Below are positions 22,250-51,941 of a stretch of 64,000 nucleotides of DNA, in pieces. The position numbers were made by a program, and so were the translations under genes. The notes below the pieces were generated by a model, which saw nothing but the letters and a program-made list of their open reading frames with translations, made no database searches and was not told the DNA's origin. The stretch spans positions 1 to 64,000 of the forward strand of contig RXJR01000023.1 in NCBI GenBank assembly GCA_003963305.1, read 5' to 3'. This DNA comes from Candidatus Melainabacteria bacterium. GTDB taxonomy: Bacteria > Cyanobacteriota > Vampirovibrionia > Obscuribacterales > Obscuribacteraceae. Positions within the stretch are counted from its first letter, which is position 1. Every line of letters starts with the position of its first letter.

Positions 22250-22421
22250 TACCCCCTGAGGTCGACCCTCCGCTAATTCTTTACCCTATGTAGGCAAATC
22301 GGAAACGAATTAACTCCATTTCGCAGTGTGGGACTGAAAGCGACCAGAGACTGCCCGACAAGCGACCCGCCACTGTCTGGAGAATAGCCGATTTCAGTCT
22401 GTTTCGCCGGGTAAGAGTGGC

Positions 22422-22516
22422 GAATGTCGGACCGGATGCTGAATGGTGGATTGGATTCCGAGTGGCGGACTGGATGCTGAATGGTGGATTGGATTCCGAA
22501 TGGCGGACCGGATCTG
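22422..22516. repeat. Five tandem copies of a 19-base repeat
   Basis: Five head-to-tail 19-base units at 22422, 22441, 22460, 22479 and 22498. They read GAATG(T/G)CGGACCGGATGCT and GAATGGTGGATTGGATTCC in alternation, so the higher-order period is 38 bases. Copies 2 and 4 are identical. The array lies between the Uup-like gene stop (22530) and the start of the secreted-protein gene (22249), so it is in that gene's upstream region. It is non-coding as far as I can see. Confidence 0.9.
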
Positions 22517-30308: not shown

Positions 30309-31034
30309 ATGGCTAAAGCTACTAAGCGTCAAACCACGCTTTCAAAAGTCAGAGAAGAGAACCGCACACCTCTTACCGCTGAAGATGCAATCAAGCTTCT
30401 GAAGAACAAAGAGCATGCAGTCAAGTTTGACGAAACCGTCGAAGTTCATTTCCGCCTGGGCGTCAACCCCAAGCAGAATGACCAACAGATTCGTTCAACT
30501 GTGAACCTTCCTGGTGGTACCGGTAAAGAAGTAAGAGTGGCTGTTGTAGCCAAAGGCGAGAAGCTCGCTGAAGCAACCGCTGCCGGAGCTGACGTTGTCG
30601 GCGCTGAAGACCTCGTTGCAAAAATCGGCGATGGCTTCCTTGAATTCGACAAGCTCGTTGCTACTCCAGACGCAATGGCAATGTTGTCAAAAATGGGTAA
30701 GGTACTCGGTCCTCGTGGCTTGATGCCAAACCCCAAAGACGGCACAGTTACCTTTGAAGTCGGCAAGACAATCAAAGAATTGAAAGCCGGAAAAGTATCA
30801 TTCCGTACAGAAAAAGATGGCGGATTGGTGCAGATGGCAATCGGCAAGTTGTCATTCGAAGATGACAGATTGCTGAAAAACCTGGCTGCAGTTGTCGACC
30901 AAGTCAACAAAGTCAAACCAGCAACCGTTAAGGGCACCTACATGAAGTCAGTCTTCCTCAGCTCCACAATGGGACCAGGACTGAAACTTGATGTAAACCG
31001 CTTGCAAGACCTGGCCAAATATCTGCACGCTTAG
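30309..31034 (+). CDS. rplA: 50S ribosomal protein L1
   Basis: A 241-residue L1 with signatures FDETVEVHFRLGVNPKQNDQ, VVGAEDLVAKIGDGF, MGKVLGPRGLMPNPKDGTV and KGTYMKSVFLSSTMGPG. L1 forms the mobile stalk of the large subunit near the E site and, in many bacteria, represses its own operon. A strong terminator follows directly, so the usual rplJ and rplL are not attached here. Confidence 0.97.
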   Translation: MAKATKRQTTLSKVREENRTPLTAEDAIKLLKNKEHAVKFDETVEVHFRLGVNPKQNDQQIRSTVNLPGGTGKEVRVAVVAKGEKLAEATAAGADVVGAEDLVAKIGDGFLEFDKLVATPDAMAMLSKMGKVLGPRGLMPNPKDGTVTFEVGKTIKELKAGKVSFRTEKDGGLVQMAIGKLSFEDDRLLKNLAAVVDQVNKVKPATVKGTYMKSVFLSSTMGPGLKLDVNRLQDLAKYLHA

Positions 31035-31062
31035 TTCGCAATAGCGAGTACATAAAGCATTT

Positions 31063-31092
31063 AAAGACGGGCTTCTGCCCGTCTTTTTGTTT
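31063..31092 (+). terminator. Rho-independent terminator after rplA
   Basis: A perfect 10-base-pair stem (AAAGACGGGC with GCCCGTCTTT) with a TTCT loop, followed by TTGTTTT. It starts 28 bases after the rplA stop. Confidence 0.93.
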
Positions 31093-31094
31093 TG

Positions 31095-31274
31095 GAGTCC
31101 GTAGCCAACCGATATCGGTTTACAAAATCTGAGTCCACAGCCAACCGATATCGGTTTACAAAAATCTGAGTCCACAGCCAACCGATATCGGTTTACAAAA
31201 ATCTGAGTCCACAGCCAACCGATATCGGTTTGCAAAAATCTGAGTCCACAGCCAACCGATATCGGTTTACAAAA
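31095..31274. repeat. Five tandem copies of a 36-37-base repeat containing a palindrome
   Basis: Units begin at 31095 (36 bases), 31131, 31168, 31205 (37 bases each) and 31242 (incomplete). The core is GAGTCCACAGCCAACCGATA continuing into TCGGTTTACAAAAATCT. Each unit holds the perfect 14-base palindrome AACCGATATCGGTT. Units differ by only a few bases: GTAG for ACAG in the first, one A to G in the fourth. It lies between the rplA terminator and the end of the convergent TadE-like gene. It has no spacers, so it is not a CRISPR array. Confidence 0.93.
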
Positions 31275-31307
31275 GGCCTGTAAAACCAGAGAGATTGTCC
31301 GAACTAG

Positions 31308-31805
31308 CTAAGGTGATGCCGTTGCACTGTTGGGTACGACGTATGTAATCGGAAAGCTTTGCTGTGAACGGAATTTCAACGGAGACTGTCCGTTGTATGC
31401 AGCCTGCACCACAAACGGTCTGACTTCGACTTCGGTTTGGACCGTGACCGTGCCATTGAGGGCTCCACCGTACGGTTTCAAAGCATCTGCTTGCGCTTGA
31501 GAGACGGTGCTCAGCGGCGGATCGGTAATTAGTTTGAAATTCGAGAGCATTCCCGCTGCACGGGCATTGGCTCGGGCGACAACTGCTTTGGCTCTGCTTG
31601 CCTGGTCTTGCGGGGCACCGCTGGCCGCGACACGGGCAGCCTCTCGGCAAGTGGAGTCGTTGATCTGCACGCCGATAACGATGACTGCCAGGTCGAAAAC
31701 AACCAAAACGATTGGAATCAGGGCAATCAGTCCTATTGCCAACTCGACAATCGACTGACCTTTTTCACGTGTACCGCGACGCCCGCTCAATCTTGCCATG
31801 CACAC
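31308..31805 (-). CDS. TadE-like pilus/secretion protein
   Basis: A 165-residue membrane-anchored protein. The N-terminus has the TadE motif: basic start, then GQSIVELAIGLIALIPIVLVVF, where Glu follows the Ser-Ile-Val as in other TadE/TadF pseudopilins. A single transmembrane helix spans about 20-45. The NDSTCREAARVAASG block that follows is also typical of TadE/TadG proteins. The remainder is a small extracytoplasmic domain. No other tad gene is next to it; a TadG-like protein lies at 40471. It may be part of a dispersed tight-adherence or type IVc pilus system (inference). Confidence 0.8.
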   Translation of the reverse strand: MCMARLSGRRGTREKGQSIVELAIGLIALIPIVLVVFDLAVIVIGVQINDSTCREAARVAASGAPQDQASRAKAVVARANARAAGMLSNFKLITDPPLSTVSQAQADALKPYGGALNGTVTVQTEVEVRPFVVQAAYNGQSPLKFRSQQSFPITYVVPNSATASP

Positions 31806-35461: not shown

Positions 35462-36778
35462 TTAAGGGGTCTTTTCGCCGGACTTATCGGCTGGTTTTTC
35501 GGATGCCTTATCGGCAGATTTGTCTGTTGATTTATCCGCTGACTTATCGGCAGACTTGTCTGTTGGTTTATCCGCTGGCTTATCGGCAGACTTGTCTGTC
35601 GGGTCAGCCGTAGCCGACCCATCAGAAGTTTTAGCGTCGCTTGATGGATCTTTCTTGTCATCTACGACAGCGTCTGACTTGCCTTCAGAAGTCTCACTGC
35701 TTTTGGCCTCATCGGGCTTGGCGTCAGGCTTGGCGTCCGGATCTTCGTCAGACTTTTTCTCCAGCGTATTGGCGGTTAACCACTCCTGGTAAGCCTGCTC
35801 TTCCTTGCCTTCATTGTGATAAATCTCAGCATAAAGACGATGCAATTGAGCATTGTCTTTGAACTTAGCCTTCTGCGAATCCAACACGGACCGTGCTTCA
35901 GGCACACGGTTTTGCAAAATCAACATCTCAGCTAACAACAACTTGGCTTCAATGGAGACTGGCTCCTTATCAGCAATTGCGCGCTGCTCCTTAATCGCAT
36001 CAGGAACAGAATCATGGTTTTTCTCAACCAGTTCTTTTGCTTCCATCGGATATCCAAGCGTGCGTGCTTTTCCAAAAGCCTGGATATATTCTTCAAATCC
36101 ATCTTTTTCCTGATGATTGCGAGCCATCGCAATGCCGAGCAACATTTGCACCGACGAATTTTCGGGATCTTTGTCTGAAATGCCCTTGAGTAAGTTGATC
36201 GCCTTTTCTTCATCTAGGTTTGACATGTAAAGTCGCGCCAGTTCAAGAGACGGCTGAAAGTCCATATTCGTTTTTATGACCTGGTCATACTGCTTCGTGG
36301 CTTCTTCGATGCGTCCGGCCCGCCCCAGTGCGCGCGCATAGTTCAAGCGAACATATTTGCTCACCGGGCACATGTAGGTAGCCGTCTTGAGCAAGTCGAA
36401 ACCTTCCTCGGTTTCACCACGATCTTTGGGCGCATCGACGAAGACATTGCCGGCGCACATCAAATTTTTGACGTTCCACTTATCTTTGTCGAGAAGTTGC
36501 CGAGCAGCACCAAGGGCACCATCAACGTCCCCCTCGCGCATCAAACGCGAAGGCTCCATGTCGTAGACATCCGAGAGCAGCTTCTGCGAACAGAGGTAGA
36601 GCACCTCCTTATCGTTTGAAACAGAACCAGGCACAACTCCATCACCAGCATAGAGTCGCATCTCCTCAGGCTTGACAATAGTGAACCAGAATCCGACGGC
36701 ACAAATAACGGCTATGAGAGTTGCCCACGAGAGTAAGCCCTTCCAGGCCACTTCATTTTCGGTACCGTCACCTGTCAC
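35462..36778 (-). CDS. Membrane-anchored TPR protein with (S/P/T)-(A/T)DK repeat tail
   Basis: A 438-residue protein. One N-terminal transmembrane helix (about 14-34: LSWATLIAVICAVGFWFTIV) with no cleavage site suggests an anchor. The middle (60-340) is TPR or Sel1-like helical repeats (RLNYARALGRAGRIEEATKQYDQVI; LLAEMLILQNRVPEARSVL). The last 100 residues are low complexity, rich in Lys, Asp, Ser and Pro, ending in four-residue units such as SADK, PADK, PTDK, STDK. At DNA level this is a 12-base tandem pattern at about 35480-35600, prone to copy-number change. It lies 33 bases downstream of holB in the same direction. Confidence 0.82.
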   Translation of the reverse strand: MTGDGTENEVAWKGLLSWATLIAVICAVGFWFTIVKPEEMRLYAGDGVVPGSVSNDKEVLYLCSQKLLSDVYDMEPSRLMREGDVDGALGAARQLLDKDKWNVKNLMCAGNVFVDAPKDRGETEEGFDLLKTATYMCPVSKYVRLNYARALGRAGRIEEATKQYDQVIKTNMDFQPSLELARLYMSNLDEEKAINLLKGISDKDPENSSVQMLLGIAMARNHQEKDGFEEYIQAFGKARTLGYPMEAKELVEKNHDSVPDAIKEQRAIADKEPVSIEAKLLLAEMLILQNRVPEARSVLDSQKAKFKDNAQLHRLYAEIYHNEGKEEQAYQEWLTANTLEKKSDEDPDAKPDAKPDEAKSSETSEGKSDAVVDDKKDPSSDAKTSDGSATADPTDKSADKPADKPTDKSADKSADKSTDKSADKASEKPADKSGEKTP

Positions 36779-48563: not shown

Positions 48564-50142
48564 GTCCGCTGATTTTGAAAGCGCTTACCTGTCCATTGCT
48601 TAAATCTCCTACTTTGATTTCATTGTTGTTAGTGTCGGCAATGTAGACTTTCTGTCCGTCGATAGCCAGACCGTTGGGTTCGTTGAACTCGGGATGATTG
48701 CCGACTGCATTTCCCGGTTTACCGGTGCCCCAGACCGTCGAAACCGTTTTCGAAACCAGATCGATCCTCTTAATCTTGTGATTGAGTGTATCGGCGACGT
48801 AGAGCTTATTCCCAGCAGTAATAATGCCCAGTGGATGCTTGAGAAAAGCCTTGTTGAGTGGACCGTCGACATCACCGAAATCAAAGAGCCCTTTGCCAAC
48901 AATGGTTTTGACTTTGCCCGTCTTCGGATTGATGTCGGCACTCCTTACTGAATTCGATTCACTGTCTGTAAAATAGACCTTACCCACACTAAATGTAATA
49001 CCACTTGGCTGAGCCAGGTCCGCATCCAGCAAAGGTTTGTCGGTAAGCCCCTCCTCGCCTGAGCCCGCAAATACATACATGTGATTGTTGTTGAAGAACA
49101 ATGCATAAATCTGATGAGCGCCCGCCATGGATATATATAATCGGTCTTTAGCCATGACCAGATCCCAGGGCGAATTTAATCGCGCTTGTTTTGCATCGCC
49201 AAAATCTGGTGGGGATATGTATTCGTTAAGCACACCATCACCAGATATGGTGCTAACAATCTGCTTGTCGAGATCGACCTTTCTCAATCTCTGATTTTGA
49301 GTATCGGCGACATACAAAATATTGTTCGAGACTGCAAGCCCGCGTGGATGGTGAAATTGAGCTCTATCATAGGATCCGTCAGCGAAACCTGCCTGACCTG
49401 TTCCGATTACATTCACCAACTTGCCGTCGAAACCAGCGACGACGATTCGATTGTGCCCCGAATCAGCGATGTATAGCAACTTACGTTTAGCATCAAGACA
49501 AAGCTTCTCTGGAAAGCTGAGCGGAGTGGTATCACGAGCCGGCTCAGGGCTAATAACGAGTGGCTTTTCGTCAAGTTTTCCATTTTTCTTGTACTTCTCA
49601 ATGAGTTGGTTGACTTGCTGATCGAGTTGTTGGTAGCTGCGTTCGCCGAGAAGCATCTTTACGAGCCCACCTTCAGGGTCAATCAATACAATGGTCGGAT
49701 AAGCCTTCACGCCGTAAGCCGACCAGATCACATTGTCAGCATCATTCACGACCGGATGCTCAAGCTCCATCCTGCGAACAGCGTCTTGCAGCGGCTTTGT
49801 ATCTTTCTCGGAATCGTATTTGGGAGCATGAACGCCGATCACAACCAGATCATTAGGATGTCGCTTTTGCAGCTCTTTCAAAATCGGAATCGTATGAAAG
49901 CAGTTGACACAACTAAGATTCCAGAAATCGAGTAAAACGATCTTGCCTCGCAGATCCTTCAGCTTGAGAGGACTGGCTGTATTCAACCAATCTTTCGCGC
50001 CGTCAAGTTCAGGCGCCTTCACACTGAGCGCTGGTAGTTCTGATTTAGAGCAACCGCTTAACAGAACCGATGCAAAGCAAAACGACGTAAAAACAAGGAT
50101 TGACGACGCTAAAATTGATGGCAACCAATTGCGGATTTTCAC
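48535..50142 (-). CDS. Thioredoxin-NHL-repeat lipoprotein
   Basis: A 535-residue envelope protein. The signal peptide ends in the lipobox LLSGC (Cys31). A thioredoxin-like domain occupies 40-195 with the redox pair CVNC at 78-81 (DFWNLSCVNCFHTIP), and cis-Pro YPTIVLID. Then six or so NHL repeats (215-530) form a beta-propeller, for example LLYIADSGHNRIVVAGFDG, LYVADTQNQRLRKVDLD and KLYVADTLNHKIKRIDL. The layout resembles NHLRC2. It may act on envelope thiols or bind a ligand. Its 5' end overlaps the histidine kinase by four bases, so the two are probably co-translated. Confidence 0.88.
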   Translation of the reverse strand: MKIRNWLPSILASSILVFTSFCFASVLLSGCSKSELPALSVKAPELDGAKDWLNTASPLKLKDLRGKIVLLDFWNLSCVNCFHTIPILKELQKRHPNDLVVIGVHAPKYDSEKDTKPLQDAVRRMELEHPVVNDADNVIWSAYGVKAYPTIVLIDPEGGLVKMLLGERSYQQLDQQVNQLIEKYKKNGKLDEKPLVISPEPARDTTPLSFPEKLCLDAKRKLLYIADSGHNRIVVAGFDGKLVNVIGTGQAGFADGSYDRAQFHHPRGLAVSNNILYVADTQNQRLRKVDLDKQIVSTISGDGVLNEYISPPDFGDAKQARLNSPWDLVMAKDRLYISMAGAHQIYALFFNNNHMYVFAGSGEEGLTDKPLLDADLAQPSGITFSVGKVYFTDSESNSVRSADINPKTGKVKTIVGKGLFDFGDVDGPLNKAFLKHPLGIITAGNKLYVADTLNHKIKRIDLVSKTVSTVWGTGKPGNAVGNHPEFNEPNGLAIDGQKVYIADTNNNEIKVGDLSNGQVSAFKISGLTSPNSSRH

Positions 50143-51941
50143 GAAACTGTTTTCTCTGATTTCACCGAAACTGTTTTCTCCGATTCCACCAGAATTGTTT
50201 TCTCTGGTTCCGCCAAAACGGTTTTCTCTGGTTCTACCGAAACGGTTTTCTCTGGTTCTACCGAGACGGTTTTCTTTGATTCCACCGAAACCGCCCTTTC
50301 TGGTTCTACCGAAACTGTTCCCTCGGTTTTCACCAGGCGGTCTTCAGAGAGTGCACTAAAATTGTCTGCAATCGGCAGCTCGAACCAGAATTCAGTCCCA
50401 GTACCGATTTCTGTATTAAACCCGATGGTGCCGCCATGTTCTTCAACAATTCCTTTGGAAATAGCAAGACCCAGCCCGGAACCTTTGCGTCTGATGCCAT
50501 CACCCTCTTCTACTTTTTCAAACTTGCCGAATATTTTGTGACGCTGATCCTCGGCGATACCAGGTCCTGAATCTTTCACGGAAAAGCGAATATGACCGGA
50601 ATCTGGTTGTGTCACTTCGACTATGATTTGATCCTTCACTTTCGAGAACTTGATAGCGTTCGAAATCAAGTTAGTTAGAACCTGTATTAGCCGGTCCTCA
50701 TCAGCCATTACGAAGCCGAGCGCATCCATCACGACATTGAGCGTGACTCCCGCTTCAAGAGCCATTCCCTTCATCCCATCAACCGCTAGCGTCACCAGGT
50801 CGAGAGTATCCAGTCGCGACACATTGATGTGCAACTTTCCTTCTTCAATCTGCTTCACATCAAGCAGATCATTGATCAGTCGGAGCAATCGAGCACAGCT
50901 GATGTTGGCGGTACTCAACAACTCTTTCACCTGCTCCGATCCATGCTCTGCCATGGCGTGATCGATGAGCTGCATCGCGCCCTGAATCGACGTTATAGGC
51001 GATCGCAATTCATGCGACACATTGGAATAGAAATCTTTGAAGCGCTGTTCCACTTCTTTGCGTCGAGCAATTTCAGCTTCCATTTCGTCAATCGCTTTCA
51101 ATCGTGCTCGATCCATGCGATCGATGCTCCAGGCATTCCAGAAAATCACTGTCATAAAAATCAAAACGAGCATGGCAACGAGCAGTGTCAAGCCCATCTC
51201 TGACGAGTAGAATTTGTGCCGCTCTCCTTCCATGCGCAGCCAACCTAAAAGCAATGGCAGCAAAACCGCGGCCGGCAGCAAGCGACGCGCAAGAACACCA
51301 CCTGCAGTGTCACGGGAGAGAATTGAGGCGAACCCATGTTCCGGTCGAATCAGGAGAACACCCAGAGAAAGAACCGCAATGGTGATGCCTTCCAATAAGG
51401 AAATTCGCAGGCAGGAGATAAAAATGCAGAATCCAGGAATACCGAAGATCACGCCAAGCAGTGTCATCATCGATAGAAAAGCGGCTACAACCGTAAACAG
51501 ATCGGCCACTCGAAAGCGCCTTGAAGGCAAATCGATACAGAGTAAAGCAATACTGATTAGTAGCAACGAGAGGGCATCGTTAGCAGCCAGAGAATTGAAG
51601 ACCGAGAAGGCAAACCCGCCTGACATAGCATCCAGGGATTCTTGACTGGAAGCCATGAGCAGGTCTATCAGGTCGTGACCAGCGATAAAACAAAGCACAG
51701 CAGCAAGGACCAGCCCCAGAATATGCAGCGGCGATTTAACACGCTTAACCTGTAACACGCAAAGCGACGCGCCGGCCAGAATAAACGGAAAAGACGGAAT
51801 GGACTTGAAAACGACCAGAGCGGGTGCAGCCGTCGTCCATGCTATTAACGACATTTGTCCGATCAAAAACGTCACAATACCGCTCATCAGGCTAATGAGC
51901 TGCATATTGCGATTAAATCGTGTTTCAACCGAGGCGGTCAT
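50139..51941 (-). CDS. Multi-pass membrane histidine kinase with repeat tail
   Basis: A 600-residue sensor kinase. Seven or eight transmembrane segments fill about 12-270, without a recognised named sensor domain. HisKA has NVSHELRSPITS (His310). HATPase_c has LISNAIKF, DSGPGIAED, FGKFEKVE and GSGLGLAISKG. The C-terminal 55 residues are seven- to eight-residue repeats (VSVEPEKT, VSVESKKT, ILVESEKT), a low-complexity tail that ends in the overlap with the lipoprotein gene. The response regulator that starts 160 bases away on the opposite strand is a likely partner (inference). Confidence 0.9.
   Translation of the reverse strand: MTASVETRFNRNMQLISLMSGIVTFLIGQMSLIAWTTAAPALVVFKSIPSFPFILAGASLCVLQVKRVKSPLHILGLVLAAVLCFIAGHDLIDLLMASSQESLDAMSGGFAFSVFNSLAANDALSLLLISIALLCIDLPSRRFRVADLFTVVAAFLSMMTLLGVIFGIPGFCIFISCLRISLLEGITIAVLSLGVLLIRPEHGFASILSRDTAGGVLARRLLPAAVLLPLLLGWLRMEGERHKFYSSEMGLTLLVAMLVLIFMTVIFWNAWSIDRMDRARLKAIDEMEAEIARRKEVEQRFKDFYSNVSHELRSPITSIQGAMQLIDHAMAEHGSEQVKELLSTANISCARLLRLINDLLDVKQIEEGKLHINVSRLDTLDLVTLAVDGMKGMALEAGVTLNVVMDALGFVMADEDRLIQVLTNLISNAIKFSKVKDQIIVEVTQPDSGHIRFSVKDSGPGIAEDQRHKIFGKFEKVEEGDGIRRKGSGLGLAISKGIVEEHGGTIGFNTEIGTGTEFWFELPIADNFSALSEDRLVKTEGTVSVEPERAVSVESKKTVSVEPEKTVSVEPEKTVLAEPEKTILVESEKTVSVKSEKTVS

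Follow-up and report, generated by a model that had tools for sequence, protein, structure and literature searches.

A tandem palindrome array downstream of rplA in an Obscuribacteraceae genome, a candidate binding site for proteins related to IS1595 transposases

Introduction

A stretch of 64,000 nucleotides, here called the window, from the genome of a member of the Obscuribacteraceae (Candidatus Melainabacteria bacterium, assembly GCA_003963305.1, contig RXJR01000023.1, positions 1 to 64,000) contains a tandem array of five units between rplA and a convergent TadE-like gene, and each unit carries the palindrome AACCGATATCGGTT. Sequence comparisons make it probable, with a good share of doubt, that the array arose by tandem duplication of a binding site for lineage-specific proteins of IS1595-type transposase descent, which are given the working name ZRWH. 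A ZRWH dimer would bind the palindrome, ZRWH would autoregulate its own gene through an upstream palindrome, and the dispersed and tandem copies would let ZRWH dock regionally, for local control or to organise the DNA. The first-pass annotation of the window had suggested a dimeric DNA-binding protein, which is the best supported of its ideas: a candidate family was found, and binding as a dimer is presumed.

Titles and abstract openings of the open-access PMC literature contained no description of a palindrome-ZRWH system, and no paper on the 14-mer itself was found. The proposed reading also suggests a function for ZRWH, a family without description in the literature searched. In the following, G-numbers denote genomes and L-numbers loci; G000 is the window's own genome (7.48 Mb).

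The array and its neighbours

The features of the region are, in window coordinates:

30309..31034, + strand: rplA, ribosomal protein L1 (PF00687, 1.5e-61)
31063..31086, + strand: terminator-like hairpin after rplA, separate from the array (10 pairs, 6 of them G-C, T-rich tail)
31095..31274, no strand: tandem array, five units of 36-37 bp (Tandem Repeats Finder)
31107..31120, no strand: palindrome AACCGATATCGGTT, copy 1 (exact match)
31143..31156, no strand: palindrome AACCGATATCGGTT, copy 2 (exact match)
31180..31193, no strand: palindrome AACCGATATCGGTT, copy 3 (exact match)
31217..31230, no strand: palindrome AACCGATATCGGTT, copy 4 (exact match)
31254..31267, no strand: palindrome AACCGATATCGGTT, copy 5 (exact match)
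31308..31805, - strand: TadE-like gene, convergent neighbour (PF07811, 1.2e-4, 22.6 bits, just below the cut-off of 22.9)

Tandem Repeats Finder gives the array a period of 37, 4.9 copies and 96% matches, and the five palindromes follow each other with start-to-start spacings of 36, 37, 37 and 37 bp. Terminator-like sites are near their chance number (2 in 1001 bases, 1.3 expected from shuffles), despite which the hairpin has ten pairs and stands directly after rplA. Repeat finder, exact matches and hairpin call thus confirm the initial description of five palindrome-bearing units after the rplA terminator. The rest of the window has no further match to AACCGATATCGGTT at up to 2 mismatches; dinucleotide shuffles of the window gave a mean of 0.18 matches, and none of 100 reached five.

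The spacers inside the array are 97% identical to one another and the palindrome is 14 bp long, unlike a CRISPR-type layout with long conserved repeats and unique spacers; some older palindrome arrays outside the window do have dissimilar spacers. A plasmid origin of the array was rejected, as a plasmid search with the array matched its terminator part only (four Burkholderia records).

The usual neighbours of rplA are rplJ-rplL, which are absent beside it here; rplA is followed by the TadE-like gene on the opposite strand (window 31034-31805). The sequences downstream of rplA look alike by eye in L389, L392, L393, L395, L397 and L399. Other tandem repeats of the window lie at 22421-22513 (38 bp, 2.4 copies), 35507-35599 (36 bp, 2.6 copies) and 50142-50319 (24 bp, 7.4 copies, 80% matches).

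Distribution of the palindrome

A search of the own genome, as had been recommended, yielded eight copies of the 14-mer AACCGATATCGGTT, five of them in the array, and 15 copies of the 12-mer ACCGATATCGGT; the reversed control gave none in either case. Further arrays with other spacers are located on contigs C28 and C32. Within the order, 25 of 53 genomes contain the 14-mer, with 434 copies (table sum) against one for the reversed control. In a sample of the phylum the 14-mer is at background level: it occurs in 7 of 292 genomes when that of the window is counted, and the control in 8, and without the window's genome 6 of 291 genomes have one copy each. Copy numbers vary strongly inside genera (50, 49 and 2; 28, 68 and 5), the highest being that of G025 (68).

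Pairs of the 14-mer close together were found in 20 stretches of a collection of 84,980 species. Thirteen of these carry the names Obscuribacterales, Obscuribacter or Melainabacteria, three belong to a record named Cyanobacteria bacterium SZAS LIN-3 and three (L070, L075, L081) to one named Proteobacteria bacterium Centralia_MAG_505. The public name of the latter is probably wrong, as it matches G009, a member of the window's family. The remaining stretch, far from the lineage, is from Sphingomonas sp. JC676 and has two AACCGATATCGGTT copies 42 bp apart (L074:2105-2160); the ORFs listed around it include no ZRWH-like protein. A viral origin was discarded, and the 14-mer matches in viral contigs, among the matches listed, were taken as chance and omitted from the counts.

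The ZRWH protein family

All ORFs of at least 100 codons from 11 genomes were compared, those within 600 bp of a site being counted as near; these sets, like the gene positions around sites given below, rest on crude ORF calls. ZRWH is the largest recurrent group among the near ORFs. Recurrence near sites proves little alone, because the largest group among control ORFs farther away, another family, also has 16 members. The full-length ZRWH profile matches 16 of 262 near ORFs, in 7 genomes, versus 3 of 623 ORFs that are far from sites or in site-free stretches.

ZRWH proteins are predicted to combine a zinc ribbon and helices related to the ends of IS1595 transposases with a DprA-like winged helix, and have no recognisable catalytic part. 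Pfam DprA_WH (PF17782) was found in seven of eight ZRWH proteins; the eighth, from G347, has no Pfam match but reaches 191 bits against a full-length profile from which G347 sequences had been excluded. The NCBIfam model NF033547 (IS1595 transposase) matches 11 of 15 members (best 1.5e-7), each time with a score far short of the 75-bit cut-off. Its best stretches in seven members and one relative all fall at the N- or C-terminal end (N-terminal in two members) and leave the middle, with the catalytic DDE, unmatched; by Pfam, DprA_WH occupies the middle of ZRWH, where that of the IS1595 profile would be. Zn_ribbon_IS1595 was detected in one of four ZRWH proteins, at E 0.42 only, and above cut-off in the relative L488. 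No HuH domain was matched by Pfam in the family enriched beside sites.

An AlphaFold model of a ZRWH protein has a mean pLDDT of 75.5. Its winged helix is near that of DprA 3maj (Z 8.4, 1.3 A over 55) and also near Zalpha domains, a resemblance that suggests a DNA-binding protein; a Z of such size is common among winged helices. With one ZRWH protein of G008 as query, tblastn (E 1e-3) found nothing among 72,556 plasmids and 50,697 phages, and a pattern scan of viral contigs with alignment A2 returned no ZRWH relative; both searches reach near relatives only. G347 encodes a second IS1595-related protein (L488:943-1776, 277 aa) with zinc ribbon PF12760 and the C-terminal end, in which no winged helix was matched and which apparently has no catalytic part.

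Palindromes upstream of ZRWH genes

The 250 bp upstream of 56 full ZRWH genes were inspected. Part of these genes come from loci chosen for sites, hence a separate set of 39 was taken by family membership and not by palindrome. Perfect inverted repeats with arms of at least 8 precede 29 of the 56 genes (arms of at least 10 in 25), 19 of the 39 (15) and, with G008 left aside, 14 of 34 (11). The corresponding numbers are 54 of 776 (28) for other upstream regions of the same loci and 44 of 540 (22) for those with a gap of at least 100 bp. For arms of at least 10, 15 of 39 ZRWH genes thus compare with 28 of 776 (p 5e-11) and 22 of 540 (p 5e-10, both uncorrected for kinship), a control that errs high because many of its loci were picked for sites. 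This marked excess of the palindrome, or of a variant core, before ZRWH genes relative to other genes argues for ZRWH as the binder.

All ten listed full-length ZRWH genes of G008, an eleventh match falling outside the ten, have a palindrome centred 85-113 bp before the start, with the centre GATATC in eight and GTTAAC in two. Upstream cores in other genomes include ACTGATATCAGT, ATTGATATCAAT and GGCGATATCGCC. Of 28 ZRWH upstream regions, 21 have a TTGAACTTTTT-like motif, placed either between the palindrome and the start or simply ahead of the start. The motif before most ZRWH genes, e.g. upstream of L241:12294-13241, resembles a -35 element. Promoter regulation had at first been thought unlikely, which is reasonable for the window array between convergent genes; elsewhere copies sit just upstream of this promoter-like motif of ZRWH genes.

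Several observations count against ZRWH as the binder. The window has no ZRWH-profile match, and 15 of the 56 genes have no palindrome label, including all four of the window's genome, where an imperfect relative is seen upstream of three of the four genes by eye and of none by a stricter rule. Neither full-length ZRWH gene of G347, the genome with the sharpest clusters, has such a palindrome within 250 bp; for one G347 gene a copy lies at 247 bp when measured from the ORF start. Core type and ZRWH protein tree show only a loose agreement (13 changes against a shuffled mean of 18.0; 7 of 500 shuffles as low), and the four GTTAAC cores do not group. Apart from these points, an imperfect inverted repeat of different sequence, ACAGATGAAATTT..AAATTCATCTGT, precedes the ZRWH gene at L448 (G000, contig C9) immediately ahead of the TTGAACTTTTT motif, in the spot where other ZRWH genes have the palindrome.

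Association and clustering with ZRWH genes

Across the 53 genomes, the number of ZRWH matches by C-terminal profile correlates with that of the 14-mer (Spearman 0.53, uncorrected for kinship). None of nine genomes with a single profile match, presumably DprA, has the 14-mer versus 25 of the 44 others (p 2e-3, kinship uncorrected). By a looser split, drawn after seeing the table, none of 14 genomes with a best E above 1e-17 has the 14-mer versus 25 of 39 others (Fisher 1.9e-5, kinship uncorrected). Two of the three ZRWH genes of G347 do not surpass the 1e-17 limit, and the 14 genomes include five with two or three matches and five that are less than 80% complete. The lack of the 14-mer in genomes with few or weak ZRWH matches is a further argument for ZRWH as the binder. 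Against it count the 14 of 39 genomes with good ZRWH matches that have no exact 14-mer, among them G346 with 16 ZRWH-profile matches; some of these 14 have another palindromic core upstream, and in others none was found.

Clustering was tested in G347, G007, G029, G000 and G008 at a single distance of 50 kb with a binomial test that treats sites as independent, using the 12-mer for G000 and the 14-mer elsewhere. Sites of one array were merged, and loci lying 2.5 kb or less from a ZRWH match were omitted. Matches left out as DprA or as being without winged helix were G347 C5:551697 and C1:2312021, G029 C1:1087241, G007 C9:127884 and G000 C3:159146, and weak and partial G029 matches and one G007 match with stops were kept. 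Site loci within 50 kb of a ZRWH match number 18 of 21 in G347 (expected 0.8), 10 of 23 in G007 (2.4) and 19 of 32 in G029 (10.4). In G347 all 21 lie within 100 kb (expected 1.6), and its two site clusters were spotted before ZRWH was known; G029 shows no excess at 10 kb (4, expected 2.2) and a marginal one at 100 kb (23, expected 18.0). Crowding is weak in the window's genome (3 of 9, expected 0.4), and insignificant in G008 beyond the genes' own sites (2 of 3, expected 0.7). The crowding of non-adjacent copies around ZRWH genes in several genomes supports ZRWH as the binder, against which count 7 of 24 G007 sites on a contig without ZRWH match. It is unusual for sites to crowd around the gene of their likely binder, and this arrangement lends itself to testing regional DNA organisation in cis. 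A replication origin or terminus was rejected as explanation: the strong dnaA match of G347 is on another contig than the site clusters, and the GC skew is too weak to use.

The palindrome may also be the operator of a different regulator, with the ZRWH genes as mere members of its regulon. The position upstream of the promoter-like motif suits any regulator, and recurrent families such as the far group of 16 exist away from sites too. The specific enrichment of ZRWH among the near ORFs and the differences in core from one ZRWH gene to another speak against such an operator, as does the orientation of the gaps reported below, and we regard it as unlikely.

Position of the copies relative to genes

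Among 128 sites of seven genomes, 69 are in gaps, which make up 6-16% of the DNA, 52 inside called ORFs and 7 at locus edges; 30 of the 52 belong to G029, and many such ORF calls are probably spurious. Of 51 site-bearing gaps, 24 are convergent, 23 co-directional and 4 divergent, compared with 104, 274 and 131 of all 509 gaps (convergent excess p 5e-6, divergent deficit p 1e-3), which is unlike the placement of a promoter operator.

The same preference would suit a gene-end hairpin, be it a bidirectional terminator or a REP-like transcript element. T-rich tails adjoin 22 of 54 sites in G029 and 6 of 9 in G007, and the first six G008 sites inspected are 24-47 bp past a stop codon. Such tails were found at none of 20 G017 sites and at none of the eight G000 copies outside the window array, and the window array is preceded by a separate terminator. 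One G007 site is inside moeA, copies before ZRWH genes sit upstream of the promoter-like motif, and the isolated arm mismatches of long-armed sites (see below) include no G-T. An RNA hairpin is for these reasons decidedly unlikely.

The protein with the moeA site was aligned to E. coli MoeA and shows a gap, of 3 residues only, at that place; the site therefore seems to have been born by substitution. Insertion into genes was rejected on this single in-gene site inspected. The proposal of evenly spaced sites about 3.5 helical turns apart does not hold in general: elsewhere the distance between neighbouring sites ranges from 28 to 85 bp without a constant phase, and fixed helical phasing was dropped.

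Long palindrome arms

In G008 and G017 the core is often central in long, near-perfect, locus-specific palindromes. Between 10 and 20 bp out from the 12-mer, pairing is seen at 95 of 121 positions in G008 and at 122 of 231 in G017, against 38 and 69 with permuted right arms (0 of 2000 permutations as high), the sites being partly non-independent (array units, possible duplicate contig ends). The left arms of different loci are only 27-31% identical on average. No pairing excess at this distance was seen in nine other genomes; at 4-9 bp from the core it occurs also in G029, G016, G035 and, weakly, G347. Long arms of unrelated sequence likewise surround the ZRWH palindromes of G022, G352, G343, G345 and G031.

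In 20 long-armed sites a single C-A was the sole isolated mismatch within the arms, and G-T was not seen. The lack of G-U pairs would suit a process at the DNA level, for instance template switching at the core. Such switching at palindromes is a known phenomenon, and the long locus-specific arms may preserve a natural record of mutation by this route.

Taken further, catalytically dead IS1595 descendants might be sequence-specific chromosome-domain proteins, each gene surrounding itself, over as much as about 100 kb, with palindromic docking sites of its own that arise and are kept by point mutation, and in some lineages a hinge-like template switch at the core might rewrite both arms into perfect, unique palindromes. 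This extension is speculative and more doubtful than not.

The palindrome as a REP- or MITE-like unit spread by a transposase would agree with its dispersal beside genes of transposase descent and with the strong variation in copy number within genera. The long arms of G008 and G017 are unrelated between copies, so any unit that is copied can be little longer than the core; in addition, no catalytic DDE stretch was matched in ZRWH (NF033547 best stretches, Pfam), and the moeA site, the sole in-gene one examined, fits substitution rather than insertion. Spread as a mobile element is accordingly very unlikely.

Age and conservation of the arrays

For the comparison of arrays, 14 loci were entered, of which one yielded none; arrays were detected by their similarity to the core, with up to 4 mismatches allowed, and the comparison is thereby biased towards a conserved core. 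Identity in nine older arrays is 0.89-1.00 between adjacent cores and 0.32-0.79 between spacers (e.g. 0.95 versus 0.66, 0.98 versus 0.54 and 1.00 versus 0.56). In five young arrays, including that of the window, core and spacer identity are both at least 0.90. A palindrome that is widespread in the family, with a core better kept than its surroundings in older arrays, argues for a binding site.

rplA was found in 46 of 53 genomes, and 500 bp downstream were inspected at 30 loci (412 in one). The 12-mer occurs at three of these: five copies in the window's genome, a single copy 46 bp after the rplA stop in G002, of the same genus, and a single copy at 96 bp in G006. It is absent from G001, of the same genus, and from 26 other loci. 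The window array is probably a young amplification of a site shared with one close relative, independent gain being the alternative; a single site in the rplA-tadE gap, as in G002, would probably have given rise to it by local tandem duplication. The recent expansion assumed at first fits the near-identical spacers and the G001 gap without a copy.

Neutral slippage of a functionless tandem repeat would account for a young, uniform array missing in G001, and two of the five young arrays have a core slightly more divergent than the spacer (0.91 versus 0.95 and 0.94). Slippage alone had been envisaged for a repeat absent elsewhere and unconserved. The array is not private slippage, because the palindrome is family-wide and present in the rplA gaps of relatives (G002 and G006), and its core is kept over the spacer in the nine older arrays, which leaves this explanation a very small chance.

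Comparison with known systems

The sites of parS/ParB, matS/MatP and Noc are likewise palindromes of about this length that concentrate in one chromosomal region. The present system differs from these in having no clear tie to dnaA and several ZRWH genes per genome. HIP1 copies of cyanobacteria number thousands, versus tens of copies here, and the core here is AACCGATATCGGTT, linked to a protein gene, and not GCGATCGC. The likeness to HIP1 (GCGATCGC) lies in an iterated palindrome typical of one lineage (PMC4390886, excerpt).

ZRWH resembles IS1595 transposases in its N-terminal helices and C-terminal end, which match NF033547 below cut-off, and through the relative without winged helix (L488), which has Zn_ribbon_IS1595. 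It differs in that the profile middle is unmatched in any best stretch and a DprA-type winged helix is found there.

REPtrons consist of TnpAREP (RAYT) and REP, short palindromes between genes, often tandem and tied to a domesticated transposase gene, and REP sequences favour convergent and co-directional gaps, according to the portions consulted of PMC8266576 and PMC3733652. The likeness lies in dispersed, often tandem, mainly intergenic palindromes paired with a transposase-descended protein. The GTAG/CGTC tag of REP is not conserved here: GTAG was present within 8 bp of 9 of 173 sites (reversed tag 1) and CGTC of none (reversed tag 5). The linked protein is IS1595-related without recognised catalytic part, whereas that of REPtrons is an HuH enzyme; TnpAREP is mostly single-copy, as far as the consulted part of PMC8266576 goes, versus up to 22 ZRWH-profile matches per genome, DprA and partial ones included. 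Moreover, the 14-mer is found unchanged in different genera, copies concentrate near the gene in several genomes, and the long arms, where present, are unrelated between copies. By this comparison the system appears REPtron-like yet outside the REPtrons, because tag and HuH enzyme are missing, and built from another transposase. If ZRWH is indeed the binder, it would represent a second, independent route from a bacterial transposase to a partner of dispersed palindromes, starting from a DDE lineage versus the HuH lineage of REPtrons.
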